A stretch of DNA of 64,000 nucleotides from Candidatus Manganitrophaceae bacterium. Its GTDB lineage: Bacteria > Nitrospirota > Nitrospiria > SBBL01 > Manganitrophaceae. This document shows positions 37,785 to 47,678 of this stretch, piece by piece. Both the position numbers and the translations under genes were made by a program. A model generated the notes under the pieces. It ran no database searches, was not told where the DNA came from, and saw only the letters and a list, made by a program, of their open reading frames with translations. Position 1 is the first letter of the stretch; each line of letters begins with the position of its first letter. The DNA is taken from contig JACQEZ010000011.1 in the NCBI GenBank assembly GCA_016200325.1, positions 124,001 through 188,000 of the forward strand, given 5' to 3'.

Positions 37785-39278
37785 TTAAGGGGTCAACTGT
37801 ATATGAACGATCTTCCCGAGCGTGGCGAGAGAGCGGTCGAATTTTCCCTCATCTCCGACCACCAAGACGACCAGCCGGTCGGGATGGAGATATTTCTGGG
37901 CGACCCGCAGAATATCTTCGCGGGTGACTTTCGCCACGTTCTCCCGGTAGCGCTCCAGGAAATCGCTCGGCAGCCCATAATACTCCAGCGACATCTGACG
38001 GCTGACGATCTGCGCCGGGCTGGCAAAAGAGAAGATAAAGGAGTTGAGAAACGACTCCTTCGCCCGCTTTAACTCCTCCTCCGTGACCGGCGCCTCTCGA
38101 ATCTTCCGGATGTGATCGACAATTGTCGAGATCGCCTGATAGGTCGTCTCCACACGGGTCTCGCCATAGGCGACCATGACCCCTCGCTCGAAGTTCCCGG
38201 GCCGGAAGACGGTTCCGACCGAGTAGGCAAGCCCCTGCTGAGTCCGGACATCCCGGAAGAGCCGGCTGGTGAACCCGCCGGCCCCCAAGATGTCATCGAG
38301 GATCGAGAGGGCAAAAAAGTCGGGGTTGTCCTGTTTGATCCCGAGATGGCCGATTCGGATCTGCGTCTGAGTAATCGGCCGGATCACTTCGAAGACCCCC
38401 CCTTCATTCCGCTCCACCACCGGCGCGACCCGCGGGAAATCGATCTCTTTCTTTTTCCAGCCGGCGAACGCCTTCTCGATCTTTGCGACGATCTCTTTCT
38501 TATCGAAATCGCCGGTCACTCCGAGGATCATGTTGTTTGGGGCGAAATATTTCTCATGAAAGGCCACCACGTCGGCCCGCCCGATCGATCGCACCGTCGT
38601 CTCGGTCGCCTCCCGTCCATACGGATTGTCCGCACCGAAGATCAGCTTATTGAACTCGCGGCCGGCGATGGAGGAGGGACGGTCGTTTCGCCGCCGAATC
38701 CCCTCAATGGCGTTGTTTTTTGCAATCTGAAGTTTTTCCTCTTCAAAGACCGGATTCATCAGGATGTCGGCGAAGAGGCCGAGCCCCCGATCGACATCTT
38801 TCTTCAACACATCGAGCCCCGCCGAACCGACATCGGAGCCGATGCCGACCGAGAGCTCAATCGCCAGCTGATCGGTCAACTCATCAATCTCATTTCCGGT
38901 ATGATTTCGCGTGCCGCCGGTCCGCATTACCATTCCGCTGAGGCCGGCCAGCCCGATCTTATCGGCCGGCTCATAGATGCTCCCAGCTTTGATCACCGCA
39001 TCCAGGCGGATGATCGGAAGCTCATGATCTTCCATCAGATAGAGAATCATTCCATTCGAAAGGACCTGCCGCTCCGCCTTCGGCGGTTTGAATGCCGGCG
39101 GGGGAAAGTTCATCGTTCGCGGATCGGGCAGCTCCGGGGTCGGGACCGCAGCGAAAGAAAGGGAAAAGATAAGAAGCCAGAAGCCGGAAGCCAGCAGTAA
39201 AATCTGTTTTGCCCTCCCCTTCTGAATCCGGACTCCTGACTTCTGAATTCTATTTTCTATGCGAACAAAGCCTTTCAT
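37785..39278 (-). CDS. M16-family protein lacking the zinc motif (non-catalytic partner)
   Basis: 497 residues, exported (signal IFSLSFAAVP preceded by a repeat-derived N-terminus). Two M16 halves: an N-terminal domain with VLSNGMILYLMEDHELPIIR, where the HxxEH zinc motif is replaced (LAGLSGMVMRTGG), and a C-terminal domain with FTSRLFRDVRTQQGLAYSVG, carrying the Arg/Tyr pair that binds substrate in partner subunits. It should pair with the active peptidase encoded just upstream, as in two-chain M16 enzymes. The start overlaps the upstream stop as ATGA (39275-39278). Confidence 0.88.
   Translation of the reverse strand: MKGFVRIENRIQKSGVRIQKGRAKQILLLASGFWLLIFSLSFAAVPTPELPDPRTMNFPPPAFKPPKAERQVLSNGMILYLMEDHELPIIRLDAVIKAGSIYEPADKIGLAGLSGMVMRTGGTRNHTGNEIDELTDQLAIELSVGIGSDVGSAGLDVLKKDVDRGLGLFADILMNPVFEEEKLQIAKNNAIEGIRRRNDRPSSIAGREFNKLIFGADNPYGREATETTVRSIGRADVVAFHEKYFAPNNMILGVTGDFDKKEIVAKIEKAFAGWKKKEIDFPRVAPVVERNEGGVFEVIRPITQTQIRIGHLGIKQDNPDFFALSILDDILGAGGFTSRLFRDVRTQQGLAYSVGTVFRPGNFERGVMVAYGETRVETTYQAISTIVDHIRKIREAPVTEEELKRAKESFLNSFIFSFASPAQIVSRQMSLEYYGLPSDFLERYRENVAKVTREDILRVAQKYLHPDRLVVLVVGDEGKFDRSLATLGKIVHIQLTP
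39171..39262. repeat. Imperfect palindrome (GAATTCAGA/TCTGAATTC family), copy 2, inside a coding 5' end
   Basis: The right part (TTCTGAATCCGGACTCCTGA, then CTTCTGAATTCTATTTTCTA, 39220-39259) closely matches 46844-46888. The left part (AGAAGCCAGAAGCCGGAAGC, from 39171) is a looser arm. It encodes, on the minus strand, the first ~35 residues of the M16 partner protein. Confidence 0.6.
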
Positions 39279-40816
39279 CGTCCCTCCTCCTTCGACACGG
39301 GAAGAACCTTCCTCTTTTCCTCCCCGGCAGGGGGCGATACCTGGACCAGCGTCGCCACCGTTCGATTTTTCTTGGTGAAATAGGTCCGCGCCACCCGCAT
39401 TACATCCTCTCCGGTCACCTTCGCGATATCATCGCGATTTTGGAGGACATAGCGCCAATCGCCGGCGACCGCCTGAAAATAGGCCAACTGGCTGGCCAGT
39501 CCGCTGTTCGATCGAAGCGATCGAATCAAGCTGGCGTCGATGTTGGTAATGATCTTCTCGAGCTCTTTCGGGCTCGGCGGCTCCGTCTTCAGCCGGTCGA
39601 TCTCCTCGTAAATGGCCGCTTCCACCTCCGCCGTGGTATGAGGCGCGCGGGGGGTGGCGGAGAGGGTGAAAAGGCTCGGATACCGGACGCCGGGAGTTCC
39701 GGAGTTGGTCCCCACGGCGATGGCGATCTTCTTCTCCTCGACCAATTTCTTATAAAGGCGCGAAGTCCGTCCCATAGAGAGAAGCGCGTCGATGACGTCG
39801 AAGACCGGGTCGTCGGGATGATCGATCCCCGGCTTGTGATAGCCGATCATCACCTGCGGGTTGGCCTCTTCCTCGACCTCGATTCGCCGCTCTCCCAGCT
39901 GCGGCGGCTCCGCCGTGACCACCTGCGGCGGCGGCGGCCCGGCCGGGATGGCGCCGAAATATTTCTCGAGCATCGGCGTCACCTCGGCCGGTTTGAAGTC
40001 GCCGACCATCGCAATAATCGTATTGTTCGGCGCATAGTGGGTCTTAAAAAAACGGGCCGTTTCCGTCGCCGATAGATTCCGGACATCAGATGGCCACCCG
40101 AGCGTCGGATAGCCGTAGGGGTGGGCGACAAAGGCAGCCGAGAGGAAGGCTTCGACCAGTTTTCCGCCGGGGCTCGTCTCCACACTCCGCCGCCGCTCTT
40201 CCAAGACGACCTCGCGCTCCTTGTAGAATTCGCGCAGCACCGTCCGGGCCATGCGATCCGATTCAATCGCCATCCAGAGAGGAAGGCGGTTCGCCGGGAG
40301 CGACACGACATATGAAGTTACGTCCCGACCGGTGGAGGCGTTGAATCCGACCGCGCCGTTTCGATCGTAGAGCTCGCCGAGCTCATTGCTCACCACCCAC
40401 TTTTCCCCTTCCTGCTCCAGCGCTTGGAATTTCACCCGAAGCGCTTTTATTCTTTCGCGATCGGCCTTCGGCCCCTTCGCCTCTTCCAGGGTGATCTCAC
40501 GGTTCAGTCCCTCCAACTCTTCGAGAACCGATTTCTCCTTCTGATAGTCGGACGTCCCAAGCCGCTCCGTCCCCTTGAAGGCCATATGCTCATAGAGATG
40601 GGCCACGCCGGTGATTCCGCTGTGTTCGTTGACCGATCCGACCTTATAGGTAATTTGAAAAGAGACGGTCGGCGCCTGATGGCGCTCGACCATTAAGACG
40701 GTCAGGCCGTTCGAGAGGACTTTCTCGACGACCCGGTCGGCAAGGGTCTGCGCTGAGGCGGCGGACGCCCAGAGGTGAATTAAAAGGAGAGGGATCATCC
40801 ATTTTATTTTTTTCAC
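39275..40816 (-). CDS. M16-family zinc peptidase, catalytic partner
   Basis: 513 residues with a signal peptide (MIPLLLIHLWASAASAQT). The inverted zinc motif HLYEHMAFKGT is intact, and the more distal Glu ligand is in EVVLEERRRSVETSPGG. A mid-protein C-terminal M16 domain ends with LASQLAYFQAVAGDWRY. It is a periplasmic or surface zinc protease of the pitrilysin/MPP family. GTG start at 40816 with AAGGAG seven bases before. Overlaps its inactive partner, giving a fixed two-gene unit. Confidence 0.92.
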   Translation of the reverse strand: MKKIKWMIPLLLIHLWASAASAQTLADRVVEKVLSNGLTVLMVERHQAPTVSFQITYKVGSVNEHSGITGVAHLYEHMAFKGTERLGTSDYQKEKSVLEELEGLNREITLEEAKGPKADRERIKALRVKFQALEQEGEKWVVSNELGELYDRNGAVGFNASTGRDVTSYVVSLPANRLPLWMAIESDRMARTVLREFYKEREVVLEERRRSVETSPGGKLVEAFLSAAFVAHPYGYPTLGWPSDVRNLSATETARFFKTHYAPNNTIIAMVGDFKPAEVTPMLEKYFGAIPAGPPPPQVVTAEPPQLGERRIEVEEEANPQVMIGYHKPGIDHPDDPVFDVIDALLSMGRTSRLYKKLVEEKKIAIAVGTNSGTPGVRYPSLFTLSATPRAPHTTAEVEAAIYEEIDRLKTEPPSPKELEKIITNIDASLIRSLRSNSGLASQLAYFQAVAGDWRYVLQNRDDIAKVTGEDVMRVARTYFTKKNRTVATLVQVSPPAGEEKRKVLPVSKEEGR

Positions 40817-44186: not shown

Positions 44187-44190
44187 GTTC

Positions 44191-44258
44191 GTGAGGGGTG
44201 GAGTGGGAGGGATCCGGGAAGATCGTTTTTCCCGGACGCCTCGCGCTTCACGCCTCAC
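44191..44258. repeat. Imperfect palindrome (GTGAGGnGTGnAG family)
   Basis: Left arm from 44191 (GTGAGGGGTGGAGTGGGAGG then TCCGGGAA) pairs at about 24 of 30 positions with the right arm ending 44258 (TTCCCGGA then CCTCGCGCTTCACGCCTCAC), leaving a six-base loop. It lies directly after the PBP1A stop and could act as its 3' hairpin; there is no T run after it. Confidence 0.7.
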
Positions 44259-44277
44259 ATCCTTATTTACCGGCTGA

Positions 44278-45354
<1,077 letters not shown>

Positions 45355-45498
45355 CGGCTGGTTTAAGCCATTTGGAAAAAATTCTAGATGAAGCAAACGA
45401 CTGGCCATGCCGGCGCGAATGCCGCGAATACGATGTCCAGATAAAAATTCGGAGCCTGGGAAATGAATCAAGGTGAGGATCAGGCGGTGCCTGTCCAA

Positions 45499-45562
45499 GC
45501 CGCGGGGTGTGGGCGCATCGGAGGACCCTTTCTTAGTCACTTGCCGGACGGGCCCCACATAC
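45499..45562 (+). promoter_or_regulatory. Conserved ~62-nt leader element, copy 1 (before pgk)
   Basis: Begins CGCGGGGTGTGGG at 45501 and ends GGGCCCCACATA. It is about 88% identical to a second copy at 62739-62803. GTGTGGG (45507-45513) can pair with CCCACAT (45554-45560). It ends about 22 bases before the pgk ATG. No T tract follows, so it is not an ordinary terminator. Confidence 0.7.
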
Positions 45563-45583
45563 AAAAAGAAAGGGCGGACGCTC

Positions 45584-46783
45584 ATGAACATGAATAAATT
45601 GACCATTGAAGATGTCCCCATCAAAGGGAAGCGGGTCTTCATCCGGGCCGACTTCAATGTCCCGTTGGACAGCAACCTGCACATCACCGACGATACCCGA
45701 ATCCGCTCCACCCTTCCGACGATTAACTACGCCATCGACGAGGGAGCCATTGTGATCCTGGCCTCCCACCTCGATCGGCCGAAAGGGGTCGATCCACGCT
45801 ACACCCTCGCCCCCGTGGCAAAACGGCTCCAACGCTTTTTGGGGAAAGAGGTTTTCTTCGCCCCCGACTGCATCGGGCCGCAGGTTCAAAACATGGTCGC
45901 CAAATTGAAGCCGGGCGATGTCCTCCTTCTCGAGAACCTCCGTTTCCATCCGGAAGAGAAAAAGAACGACGAGGGCTTTGCCAAGGCGCTGGCCGATCTG
46001 GGAATCGATGTCTATATCAACGACGCTTTCGGGGCGGTCCATCGAAGCCATGCCTCGGTCACCGGCATCACCCACTTCATCAAGGTGAAAGCGTGCGGCT
46101 TCTTGATGAAGAAGGAGATCTCCTACCTCGAGGGGGCCGTGAAGAATCCGGCGCGCCCCTTCGTGGCAATCCTCGGCGGCGCAAAGGTCTCCGGGAAAAT
46201 CGGCGTCATCGAGAACCTCGGCAAGAAGGTCGACAAGGTGATCATCGGCGGTGGAATGGCCTTCACCTTTTTGAAAGCGCTGGGGAACGATGTCGGCAAT
46301 TCGCTGGTCGAAGACTCGATGCTCTCCTTCGCACGCGAGATCAAAGAGCATGCGATCGAGCGGGGAATCAAATTCTACCTTCCGGTCGACTGTGTGGTCG
46401 CCGCCAGCATGGATCCGGCGGCGGAGACGAAGATCGTCCCGGTCCAGGAAATTCCCAAGGGATGGATCGGCCTCGATACCGGACCGGCTTCCGTCCGCCT
46501 CTTCACCGAAGTGCTGGCGAACGCGAAGACGATCCTCTGGAACGGACCGATGGGGGTCTTTGAAATGGACGCTTACTCCCGCGGCACCTCCGCCATCGCC
46601 CATGCGATCGCCAACTCGTATGCGCTGACGATCGTCGGCGGCGGTGAGACCGCCCTGGCGGTTCACAAGGCGGGAGAGTCGGAGAATATCTCATTCATCT
46701 CCACCGGCGGCGGCGCGGCGCTGCAGCTGTTGGAAGGCAAAGATCTCCCGGGACTCGCGGTCCTTCCGGACAAAGAGGCCTAA
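45584..46783 (+). CDS. pgk: Phosphoglycerate kinase
   Basis: 399 residues. N-terminal RADFNVPLDSNLHITDDTRI, substrate-binding SHLDRPKG, the hinge-side GGAKVSGKIGVIENL, and the nucleotide-binding GPMGVFEMDAYSRGT with GGGETA. It makes ATP from 1,3-bisphosphoglycerate. Start at ATG 45584 (second ATG at 45590). A frame extending upstream would read through the conserved leader element. It is 230 bases after gap with a possible separate promoter region. Confidence 0.95.
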   Translation: MNMNKLTIEDVPIKGKRVFIRADFNVPLDSNLHITDDTRIRSTLPTINYAIDEGAIVILASHLDRPKGVDPRYTLAPVAKRLQRFLGKEVFFAPDCIGPQVQNMVAKLKPGDVLLLENLRFHPEEKKNDEGFAKALADLGIDVYINDAFGAVHRSHASVTGITHFIKVKACGFLMKKEISYLEGAVKNPARPFVAILGGAKVSGKIGVIENLGKKVDKVIIGGGMAFTFLKALGNDVGNSLVEDSMLSFAREIKEHAIERGIKFYLPVDCVVAASMDPAAETKIVPVQEIPKGWIGLDTGPASVRLFTEVLANAKTILWNGPMGVFEMDAYSRGTSAIAHAIANSYALTIVGGGETALAVHKAGESENISFISTGGGAALQLLEGKDLPGLAVLPDKEA

Positions 46784-46796
46784 TTATTAATGAAGG

Positions 46797-46886
46797 CGGA
46801 ATTCAGACGTCAGGAACCGGAAGGATCGGCAGGTCGCACCTCCTTCTGAATTCTGACTTCCGGCTCCTATATTCTGAATTTCTATT
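46797..46886. repeat. Imperfect palindrome (GAATTCAGA/TCTGAATTC family), copy 1
   Basis: The left arm (from 46799, GGAATTCAGACGTCAGGAAC) and the right arm (from 46843, CTTCTGAATTCTGACTTCCG continuing into GCTCCTATATTCTGAATT) are near-complementary over ~26 bp. Related to the palindrome inside the 5' end of the M16 partner gene. Lies between pgk and tpiA. Confidence 0.7.
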
Positions 46887-46901
46887 CTAAACGGTCCCTT
46901 G

Positions 46902-47678
46902 ATGCGCACCCCTTGTTTTGTGGCGAATTGGAAAATGAATAAGAACCGCGGCGAGGCGCTCGTTTACCTTCAGGAGATGGAGAAGCGATGGCCGCAGCTT
47001 CCCCCCCTCCCTTTCGAGGCGATCGTCACCCCCCCTTTTACTCTGCTCGCCCCGATGGCCGATTATCTAAAGGGGGGAAGTGTTCCCGTCGGCTTGGGGG
47101 GCCAGAACACCCACTTTGAGGAGCGCGGCGCATATACCGGCGAAATTTCTCCCCTGATGCTCCGCGACGCCGGATGCCGCTATGTGATCATCGGCCATTC
47201 GGAGCGCCGGATCTATTTCGGAGAGACGAATGCCATCATTCACAAAAAGGTCGCTGCGGCACTGCGGGCGGGATTGATCCCGATCCTCTGCGTCGGCGAG
47301 ACCCGGGAAGAGCGGGAGGAAAATAAAACCTGGGAGGTCATCGAGCGGCAGCTGAGAGAGGCGCAGGACGACCTCCGGCCAGGCCCGTCGGATTGGATCA
47401 TCGCCTATGAGCCGGTCTGGGCGATCGGCACCGGGCTCACCCCACAGCCGGAAGAAGCCGAGTCGACCCACCGCCAGATCCGCGATTATTTTCTGTCGCT
47501 TTCGGAAGAAGGAGCCGACACACCCCGTCTTCTCTACGGCGGCAGCGTCACCGAGAAGAACATTGCGCTATTTATGGAGGAGGCCGACATCGATGGTGTA
47601 TTGGCCGGCGGCGCCAGCCTCTCCGCCGAGTCGTTCGGCAATATGATCGAATTGGGAGTAAAAGCAAAAAATAAATAA
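46902..47678 (+). CDS. tpiA: Triosephosphate isomerase
   Basis: 258 residues. FVANWKMNKN (Lys in the active site), catalytic His in IIGHSERRIYF, catalytic Glu in YEPVWAIGTG, and the phosphate-gripping LYGGSVTEKN with VLAGGASL. It interconverts dihydroxyacetone phosphate and glyceraldehyde-3-phosphate. ATG 46902 is preferred to TTG 46899. It is separated from pgk by a palindromic repeat and is 12 bases from secG. Confidence 0.95.
   Translation: MRTPCFVANWKMNKNRGEALVYLQEMEKRWPQLPPLPFEAIVTPPFTLLAPMADYLKGGSVPVGLGGQNTHFEERGAYTGEISPLMLRDAGCRYVIIGHSERRIYFGETNAIIHKKVAAALRAGLIPILCVGETREEREENKTWEVIERQLREAQDDLRPGPSDWIIAYEPVWAIGTGLTPQPEEAESTHRQIRDYFLSLSEEGADTPRLLYGGSVTEKNIALFMEEADIDGVLAGGASLSAESFGNMIELGVKAKNK

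Follow-up and report, generated by a model that had tools for sequence, protein, structure and literature searches.

The window analysed here, a 64,000-nucleotide stretch of one contig, contains a gene whose first codons resemble a palindromic repeat, and it raises the question of how such a sequence could come to stand at the start of an apparently exported protein. The host genome (4.21 Mb in 20 contigs) belongs to the genus Candidatus Manganitrophus of the Nitrospirota. An earlier note had proposed that a mobile-looking palindrome has become the signal peptide of this protein, the inactive partner of an M16 peptidase.

The N-terminus of the M16 partner

The partner gene encodes a protein with Pfam matches to Peptidase_M16_C (2.3e-40) and Peptidase_M16 (1.6e-7). 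The active-site motif of M16 peptidases is HxxEH; as read from the translation, the partner has the M16 fold without it. A second M16 gene lies directly upstream in tandem, and its stop codon overlaps the partner ATG by 4 nt (ATGA). The features of the locus are as follows.

37785–39278, minus strand: M16 partner gene, open reading frame of 497 aa
39275–40816, minus strand: upstream M16 peptidase gene with HLYEH (open reading frame and Pfam)
39280–39293, minus strand: Shine-Dalgarno sequence GAAGGAGGAGGGAC before the partner ATG, in a context common to five congeners
39219–39251, minus strand: left (purine) arm, AGAATTC AGAAGTC AGGAGTC CGGATTC AGAAG
39198–39218, minus strand: loop, encoding about GRAKQILL
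about 39172–39197, minus strand: right (pyrimidine) arm CTGCTGGCTTCCGGCTTCTGGCTTCT, encoding LLASGFWLL

The N-terminus of the open reading frame is MKGFVRIENRIQKSGVRIQKGRAKQILLLASGFWLLIFSLSFAAVPTP. The signal peptide predicted by reading this sequence spans approximately residues 1–43, with a basic n-region, a hydrophobic core and a small residue at -1; cleavage, placed by eye, would fall between SFA and A. Codons 1–44 contain one copy of a heptad palindrome, the left arm of which encodes RIQKSGVRIQKG / RIQKSGVRIQK. The earlier note had derived this peptide and LLASGFWLL from the repeat arms, and the arm positions agree with this. Its reading is supported: the two arms jointly account for the n-region and for most of the h-region. 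Tandem-repeat finding located 7-base units at 39219–39251 and 39172–39194, with 2, 0, 1 and 1 mismatches between heptad pairs in the left arm and 1, 1 and 3 in the right arm. When the 106-base M16 stretch was compared with the genome by BLAST, its positions 8–94, spanning both arms, matched another genomic place at 75% (E 7.7e-10), with further matches at 2.6e-6 and 3.1e-5 (over 15–94 and 14–89). A two-heptad 16-mer, allowing up to 2 mismatches, has 89 matches genome-wide compared with 4 for a reversed control. These results confirm that the start of the gene is written in the repeat, as had been claimed.

The start codon, the Shine-Dalgarno sequence and the 4-nt overlap all precede the repeat and are conserved in the congeners. 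The frame is open throughout the repeat, and no in-frame ATG, GTG or TTG occurs between the repeat and Met56. Because a conserved start codon stands before it, we consider the repeat copy to be translated; throughout, start codons were inferred from context, using draft genomes and crude gene calls.

The repeat family and its distribution among congeners

The repeat is a palindrome of 7-base units (AGAAGTC, AGGAGTC, AGAATTC) with about two to six heptads per arm. The arms are paired on opposite strands and their units fit the heptad consensus MTYCTGA. The earlier note had given the unit as GAATTCAGA/TCTGAATTC, which has to be discarded: the exact pattern GAATTCAGA-N(0-20)-TCTGAATTC has 0 matches genome-wide, the 9-mer TCTGAATTC has a single exact match in the M16 copy, at 39242, and GAATTCAGA is found on the plus strand in the pgk–tpiA copy only. 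The unit is instead the degenerate heptad.

The genome-wide count suggested by that note gave 28 clusters, contained in 27 regions around 16-mer matches together with the M16 copy (L110 and L113 gave none; L103, L104, L111, L112 and L123 are weak). According to a crude ORF caller, 23 of the 28 are intergenic, including two that touch a gene by 1–2 nt (L101, L115) and two with a gene called on one side only (L103, L120); most copies do not code. Two clusters form coding starts (the M16 partner and a SurA-like protein) and three form C-terminal tails (L108:1970–2004, L118:1997–2050, L119:2033–2074), the tail-bearing proteins being a DAHP-synthase-family protein, a cytochrome c and a glycogen debranching enzyme. 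The intergenic copy that had been reported within the window is real and non-coding.

45473–46783, plus strand: pgk (PF00162, 6.5e-156)
46798–46882, no strand assigned: intergenic palindrome copy, non-coding, fold z -3.6, present also in G003
46899–47678, plus strand: tpiA (PF00121, 1.1e-84)

The M16 copy folds with -31.5 kcal/mol (z -2.9), and the six copies folded range from z -2.9 to -7.2. A copy upstream of accD ends in a T-run. Elsewhere in the window, at 44187–44301, inverted heptads of a second dialect (GTGAGGC/GTGAAGC type) separate a penicillin-binding-protein-like gene from the next gene, and related heptads occur in the corresponding gap of G002, G004 and G005.

No transposase linked to the copies was found, and the 3339-base locus around the sole Y1_Tnp of the genome contains no pair of heptads even with 3 mismatches allowed. 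In the REP/RAYT class, by contrast, a Y1 transposase is flanked by the palindrome. Co-directional flanking genes were rejected as a signature, as 19 of 24 ordinary gaps of 50–200 nt are likewise co-directional.

A stricter search of 146 genomes, allowing 1 mismatch at most, gave 54 matches in this genome, 36 in G020, 21 in G003, 5 in G004 and none in G001, G002 and G005; in most relatives there are no more than a few. In all five congeners (G001–G005), the M16 partner carries a short, ordinary signal peptide without the repeat, behind the same GGGT-Met context. The earlier note had named relatives with the same N-terminus and no repeat family as evidence against its proposal, and for the M16 partner no such relative was found. 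The loop base run ATTTTACT of the M16 copy is present too in the native signal peptide of G003, and part of the hydrophobic core may thus be ancestral. In the M16 tree, this genome groups with G003 and G001 (94/93), and G002, G004 and G005 group together.

Orthologous junctions were compared for lolD, lolC and lysS (names inferred from Pfam types and position), pgk–tpiA and accD. This genome has a heptad palindrome in both the lolD–lolC and lolC–lysS gaps, and G003 has the former copy without the latter. At both gaps, G002 has a different palindrome built from CGTTATTC/CGAATAA units; in G004 and G005 the genes are separated by short spacers only, with no palindrome. The pgk–tpiA gap holds the heptad palindrome in G003 and a GGGCGACGC-type palindrome in G002, G004 and G005. 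The accD-upstream copy is common to G004 and G005 in diverged form; the repeat family is therefore older than the genus split. The description of the palindrome as mobile stands in so far as orthologous junctions differ in whether they carry a copy; the lack of a linked transposase and the other palindromes at some junctions speak against it. The gaps lolD/lolC, lolC/lysS, pgk/tpiA and trpC/trpF (L116, L109, L115) differ among Manganitrophus species, with different palindromes or none at the same gap, which looks like the replacement of one repeat by another. G003 also has an array of heptads in another dialect across the predicted start of argininosuccinate lyase (L159:124–1608), which may extend this cytosolic enzyme at its N-terminus.

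Coding properties of the heptad and further signal peptides

As 7 and 3 are coprime, a uniform heptad array encodes one cyclic peptide in all three frames: an AGAAGTC purine arm yields (RSQKSEV)n, and AGAAGCC-type units yield (GFWLLAS)n on the other strand. Mixed arrays differ slightly between frames. The element being palindromic, a charged segment precedes a hydrophobic one on either strand. GACTTCT units introduce a TGA every 7 codons whichever frame is read, and GGCTTCT units carry none. In each of the four clear cases with two arms, TGG stands at the in-frame positions, and a TGA out of frame is retained in the SurA-like, MauG and OEP genes; this in-frame TGG is no independent sign of selection, since an open frame demands it. 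For 23 copies read in six frames (those of the 28 with ends that could be set by eye), the first halves contain 26% K+R and 18% hydrophobic residues, and the second halves 4% and 48%. Charged-then-hydrophobic readings number 8 in these copies compared with a shuffle mean of 2.7 (sd 1.9), 1 of 100 shuffles reaching 8; the SurA copy falls below the thresholds if taken without its own VKK start. There are 8264 heptamers open on both strands, and 442 would yield a similar peptide pair.

The second coding start in this genome belongs to the SurA-like gene (L100:2056–2631; SurA_N_3 1.9e-14). Its product has a GTG start and the N-terminus VKKEFRSQASGVSSQKSGMGNTFFWILTAGFWFRVFLAPPALFA, consisting of left arm, loop and right arm; were an ATG in the loop used instead, the right arm alone would serve. 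Diverged forms of this N-terminus occur in G002, G004 and G005. With the frame unchanged, the orthologs of G002 and G005 read ...FFWILSSGFCLLFLPQVLLA; those of G001, G009, G013 and G014 have unrelated signals, and no ortholog was found in G003. In G004 (L129, C1 about 2984800) the arm is present with a 2-nt deletion, relative to G005, in the repeat-derived n-region; this breaks the frame from the GTG and is either a sequencing error or real. In G002 and G005, the SurA-like N-termini are the best right-arm matches of the whole genome, which suggests that this signal has persisted while most of the repeat family was lost, or that it arose twice.

A left arm combined with a TGG-type right arm was detected in 14 of 395 Nitrospirota genomes, with 1 match for the reversed control. 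Reading of loci L214–L242, several of which overlap, yielded one new signal peptide, MLRNNTCRIQNSGVRSQNKKNRYSGFWILISVFLILAVFPAYSYA, with both arms, on a CCP_MauG protein (MauG peroxidase) of G248 (L217; hairpin supported, z -3.9). Loci L214, L221, L222 and L232 were dropped because their genes begin beyond the repeat, and L225/L226 because they look antisense. At the threshold used, the MauG protein is present in 5 of 16 family genomes (G248, G149, G318, G309, G410); that of G149 has a plain signal, and the G410 match begins only at residue 74. In G318 and G309 (L245, L246), an ATTCCC/GGGAAT-type palindrome stands where G248 has the heptad palindrome.

The signal peptides of these three unrelated proteins align, the second and third being 54% and 41% identical to the first. 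Shared descent via gene duplication is ruled out, the mature proteins belonging to different Pfam families. When the three were combined into a profile (A1), 70 of the 395 genomes gave a match with E 0.02 or lower. Twenty places were hand-picked among the A1 matches listed, nearly all for long open frames, and include five new exported or membrane proteins; this search favoured signal-like readings.

L278, G248: outer-membrane efflux protein (OEP), both arms, hairpin z -4.5
L280, G237: TPR lipoprotein with LNGC, left arm strong and right arm weak, hairpin z -3.7
L281: AtpF, left arm only, in the n-region, hairpin unsupported (z 0.4)
L283: DUF3570 protein, left arm only, in the n-region
L290: FlgH, left arm only, in the n-region, hairpin unsupported (z -0.7)

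Right arms are clear in SurA, MauG and OEP. Since the later cases derive from a profile of the first three signal peptides, they are unfit to measure enrichment. The N-terminal coding cases of the present dialect found independently of the profile (M16, SurA, MauG) are all of exported types (3/3), too few for a claim of enrichment, and the argininosuccinate lyase of L159, cytosolic and of another dialect, counts against enrichment for export.

Other places were dropped where frames look spurious or antisense (L279, L282, L286, L291, L292, L296), where a natural similarity exists without heptads (L284, L293) or where the start follows the repeat (L295, L288). At L288, about bases 996–1094, the repeat seems to be the source of a Shine-Dalgarno sequence, AGGAGGGGAAATG, for the downstream gene. 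The left arm also occurs in frame inside conserved proteins of other Nitrospirota (L285, L287, L289, L294, L297: MnmA, MurC, a P-type ATPase, chorismate synthase and a Usp/PCP_red protein), where it resembles the Rickettsia palindromic elements.

Origin of the M16 signal and comparison with known systems

We favour, with a probability of about 0.82, the reading that a species-specific heptad palindrome in the M16 partner has been retained as a translated, usable Sec signal peptide. A normally intergenic palindrome would have inserted, or grown, downstream of the start codon and within the stretch that encodes the signal peptide, after the split from the sister species. The purine-rich arm would then provide the basic, polar n-region, and the loop and pyrimidine-rich arm the hydrophobic core, with the cleavage site taken from the old c-region (FSLSFA before AVPTP) and the mature enzyme unchanged. 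The sole barrier would be the in-frame TGA of GACTTCT-type units, gone where the unit is GGCTTCT. The palindrome would stay because it is translated into a usable, predicted Sec signal peptide. The identity of the repeat, the frame left open behind a conserved start, the lack of the repeat in the congeners and its return in other proteins are observed; we infer the insertion as an event, Sec export, and neutrality or selection.

An alternative that we think unlikely, though deserving of weight, is that the palindrome serves between cistrons as an RNA hairpin, retained for its effect on mRNA stability, termination or translational coupling, with an incidental coding use. The intergenic position of 23 of the 28 clusters, the stable folds, the T-run of the accD-upstream copy and the proposal of regulator binding for Geobacter heptad sites (PMC2700814) are all consistent with this, but the M16 and SurA copies are located downstream of a start codon, and the lolD/lolC and lolC/lysS junctions of G004 and G005 do without any palindrome. 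It is improbable that only a permissive n-region received the element, with an ancestral hydrophobic core and a coincidental right-arm likeness. While G003 shares ATTTTACT in its native core and AtpF, FlgH and DUF3570 have only a recognisable left arm, the BLAST match of the M16 copy crosses both arms, these arms fold together, and other proteins have clear right arms. We give very little credence to an untranslated repeat with the true M16 start downstream and the signal lost: the next in-frame ATG is indeed Met56, but the Shine-Dalgarno sequence and ATGA overlap are conserved, the frame is open and 5/5 congeners have an N-terminal signal. Chance likeness is negligible, for although the heptads are simple and purine/pyrimidine skewed, the 89 matches versus 4, the E value to a second copy and the few matches in most relatives argue against it.

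Beyond the M16 signal peptide, we tentatively propose that heptad palindromes could be a recurrent bacterial source of new signal peptides: an element that lands at the start of an exported gene would replace the signal in one step, in any frame or strand, and the resulting signal could survive after the repeat family has disappeared. Signal peptides change quickly, and it is seldom possible to trace where they came from; in the present case the sequence of origin can still be read. One peptide, RIQxSGV...SGFWLL, recurs on unrelated exported-type proteins, and the SurA-like case persists where the family is almost gone. This would offer a concrete way for repeat DNA between genes to turn into a functional piece of protein, with the 7-base unit and the palindrome as the reason for its suitability.

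In the open literature searched, we recognised no description of the heptad palindrome in Manganitrophus or of heptad-made signal peptides. The TAACTGA heptad repeats (PMC4679880) are arrays of 7-base units in intergenic DNA close to the ends of genes, and the coding outcome has been worked out for either strand. In contrast to the present family, they are described as direct repeats with hardly any inverted pairs and with a stop in every forward frame; the main text of that paper does not use the term signal peptide. The 'class 3' elements of Geobacter metallireducens (Aklujkar 2009, PMC2700814), predicted global regulator binding sites, are tandem heptads of consensus MTYCTGA in opposite-strand pairs, one of them between proBA. 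The right-arm units CTTCTGA, CTCCTGA and ATTCTGA found here fit this consensus, and a different multicopy element occupies proBA in a sister species, as at lolD/lolC, lolC/lysS and pgk/tpiA. Class 3 arms have five heptads; the arms here have about two to six, the number varying. However, class 3 belongs to another phylum and is described as binding sites, coding not being stated in the passages that describe it.

The Rickettsia palindromic elements (Ogata 2000, via PMC2229807) are 105–146 bp long and Rickettsia-specific. By description, they share with the heptad palindrome a multicopy, in-frame occurrence in conserved genes, although in the example given the enzyme guanylate kinase carries the insertion, as opposed to a signal peptide. 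RU-2/YPAL of Yersinia pestis (Delihas 2007, PMC2759123) is a MITE-derived repeat of 168 bp that forms residues 1–30 of the signal peptide predicted for YPO1552, and the homologs carry unrelated signal peptides; the review that summarises the Rickettsia elements restates this case (PMC2229807). Here too a small repeat makes a predicted signal peptide, but RU-2 concerns one hypothetical exported protein and supplies only part of the signal, and as its account (PMC2759123) describes no heptad unit, frame independence would not follow. One repeat-made Yersinia signal peptide and the Geobacter heptad elements are thus already known from these accounts (PMC2759123, PMC2700814); the M16 case is one of several, such events having apparently happened several times in related bacteria.
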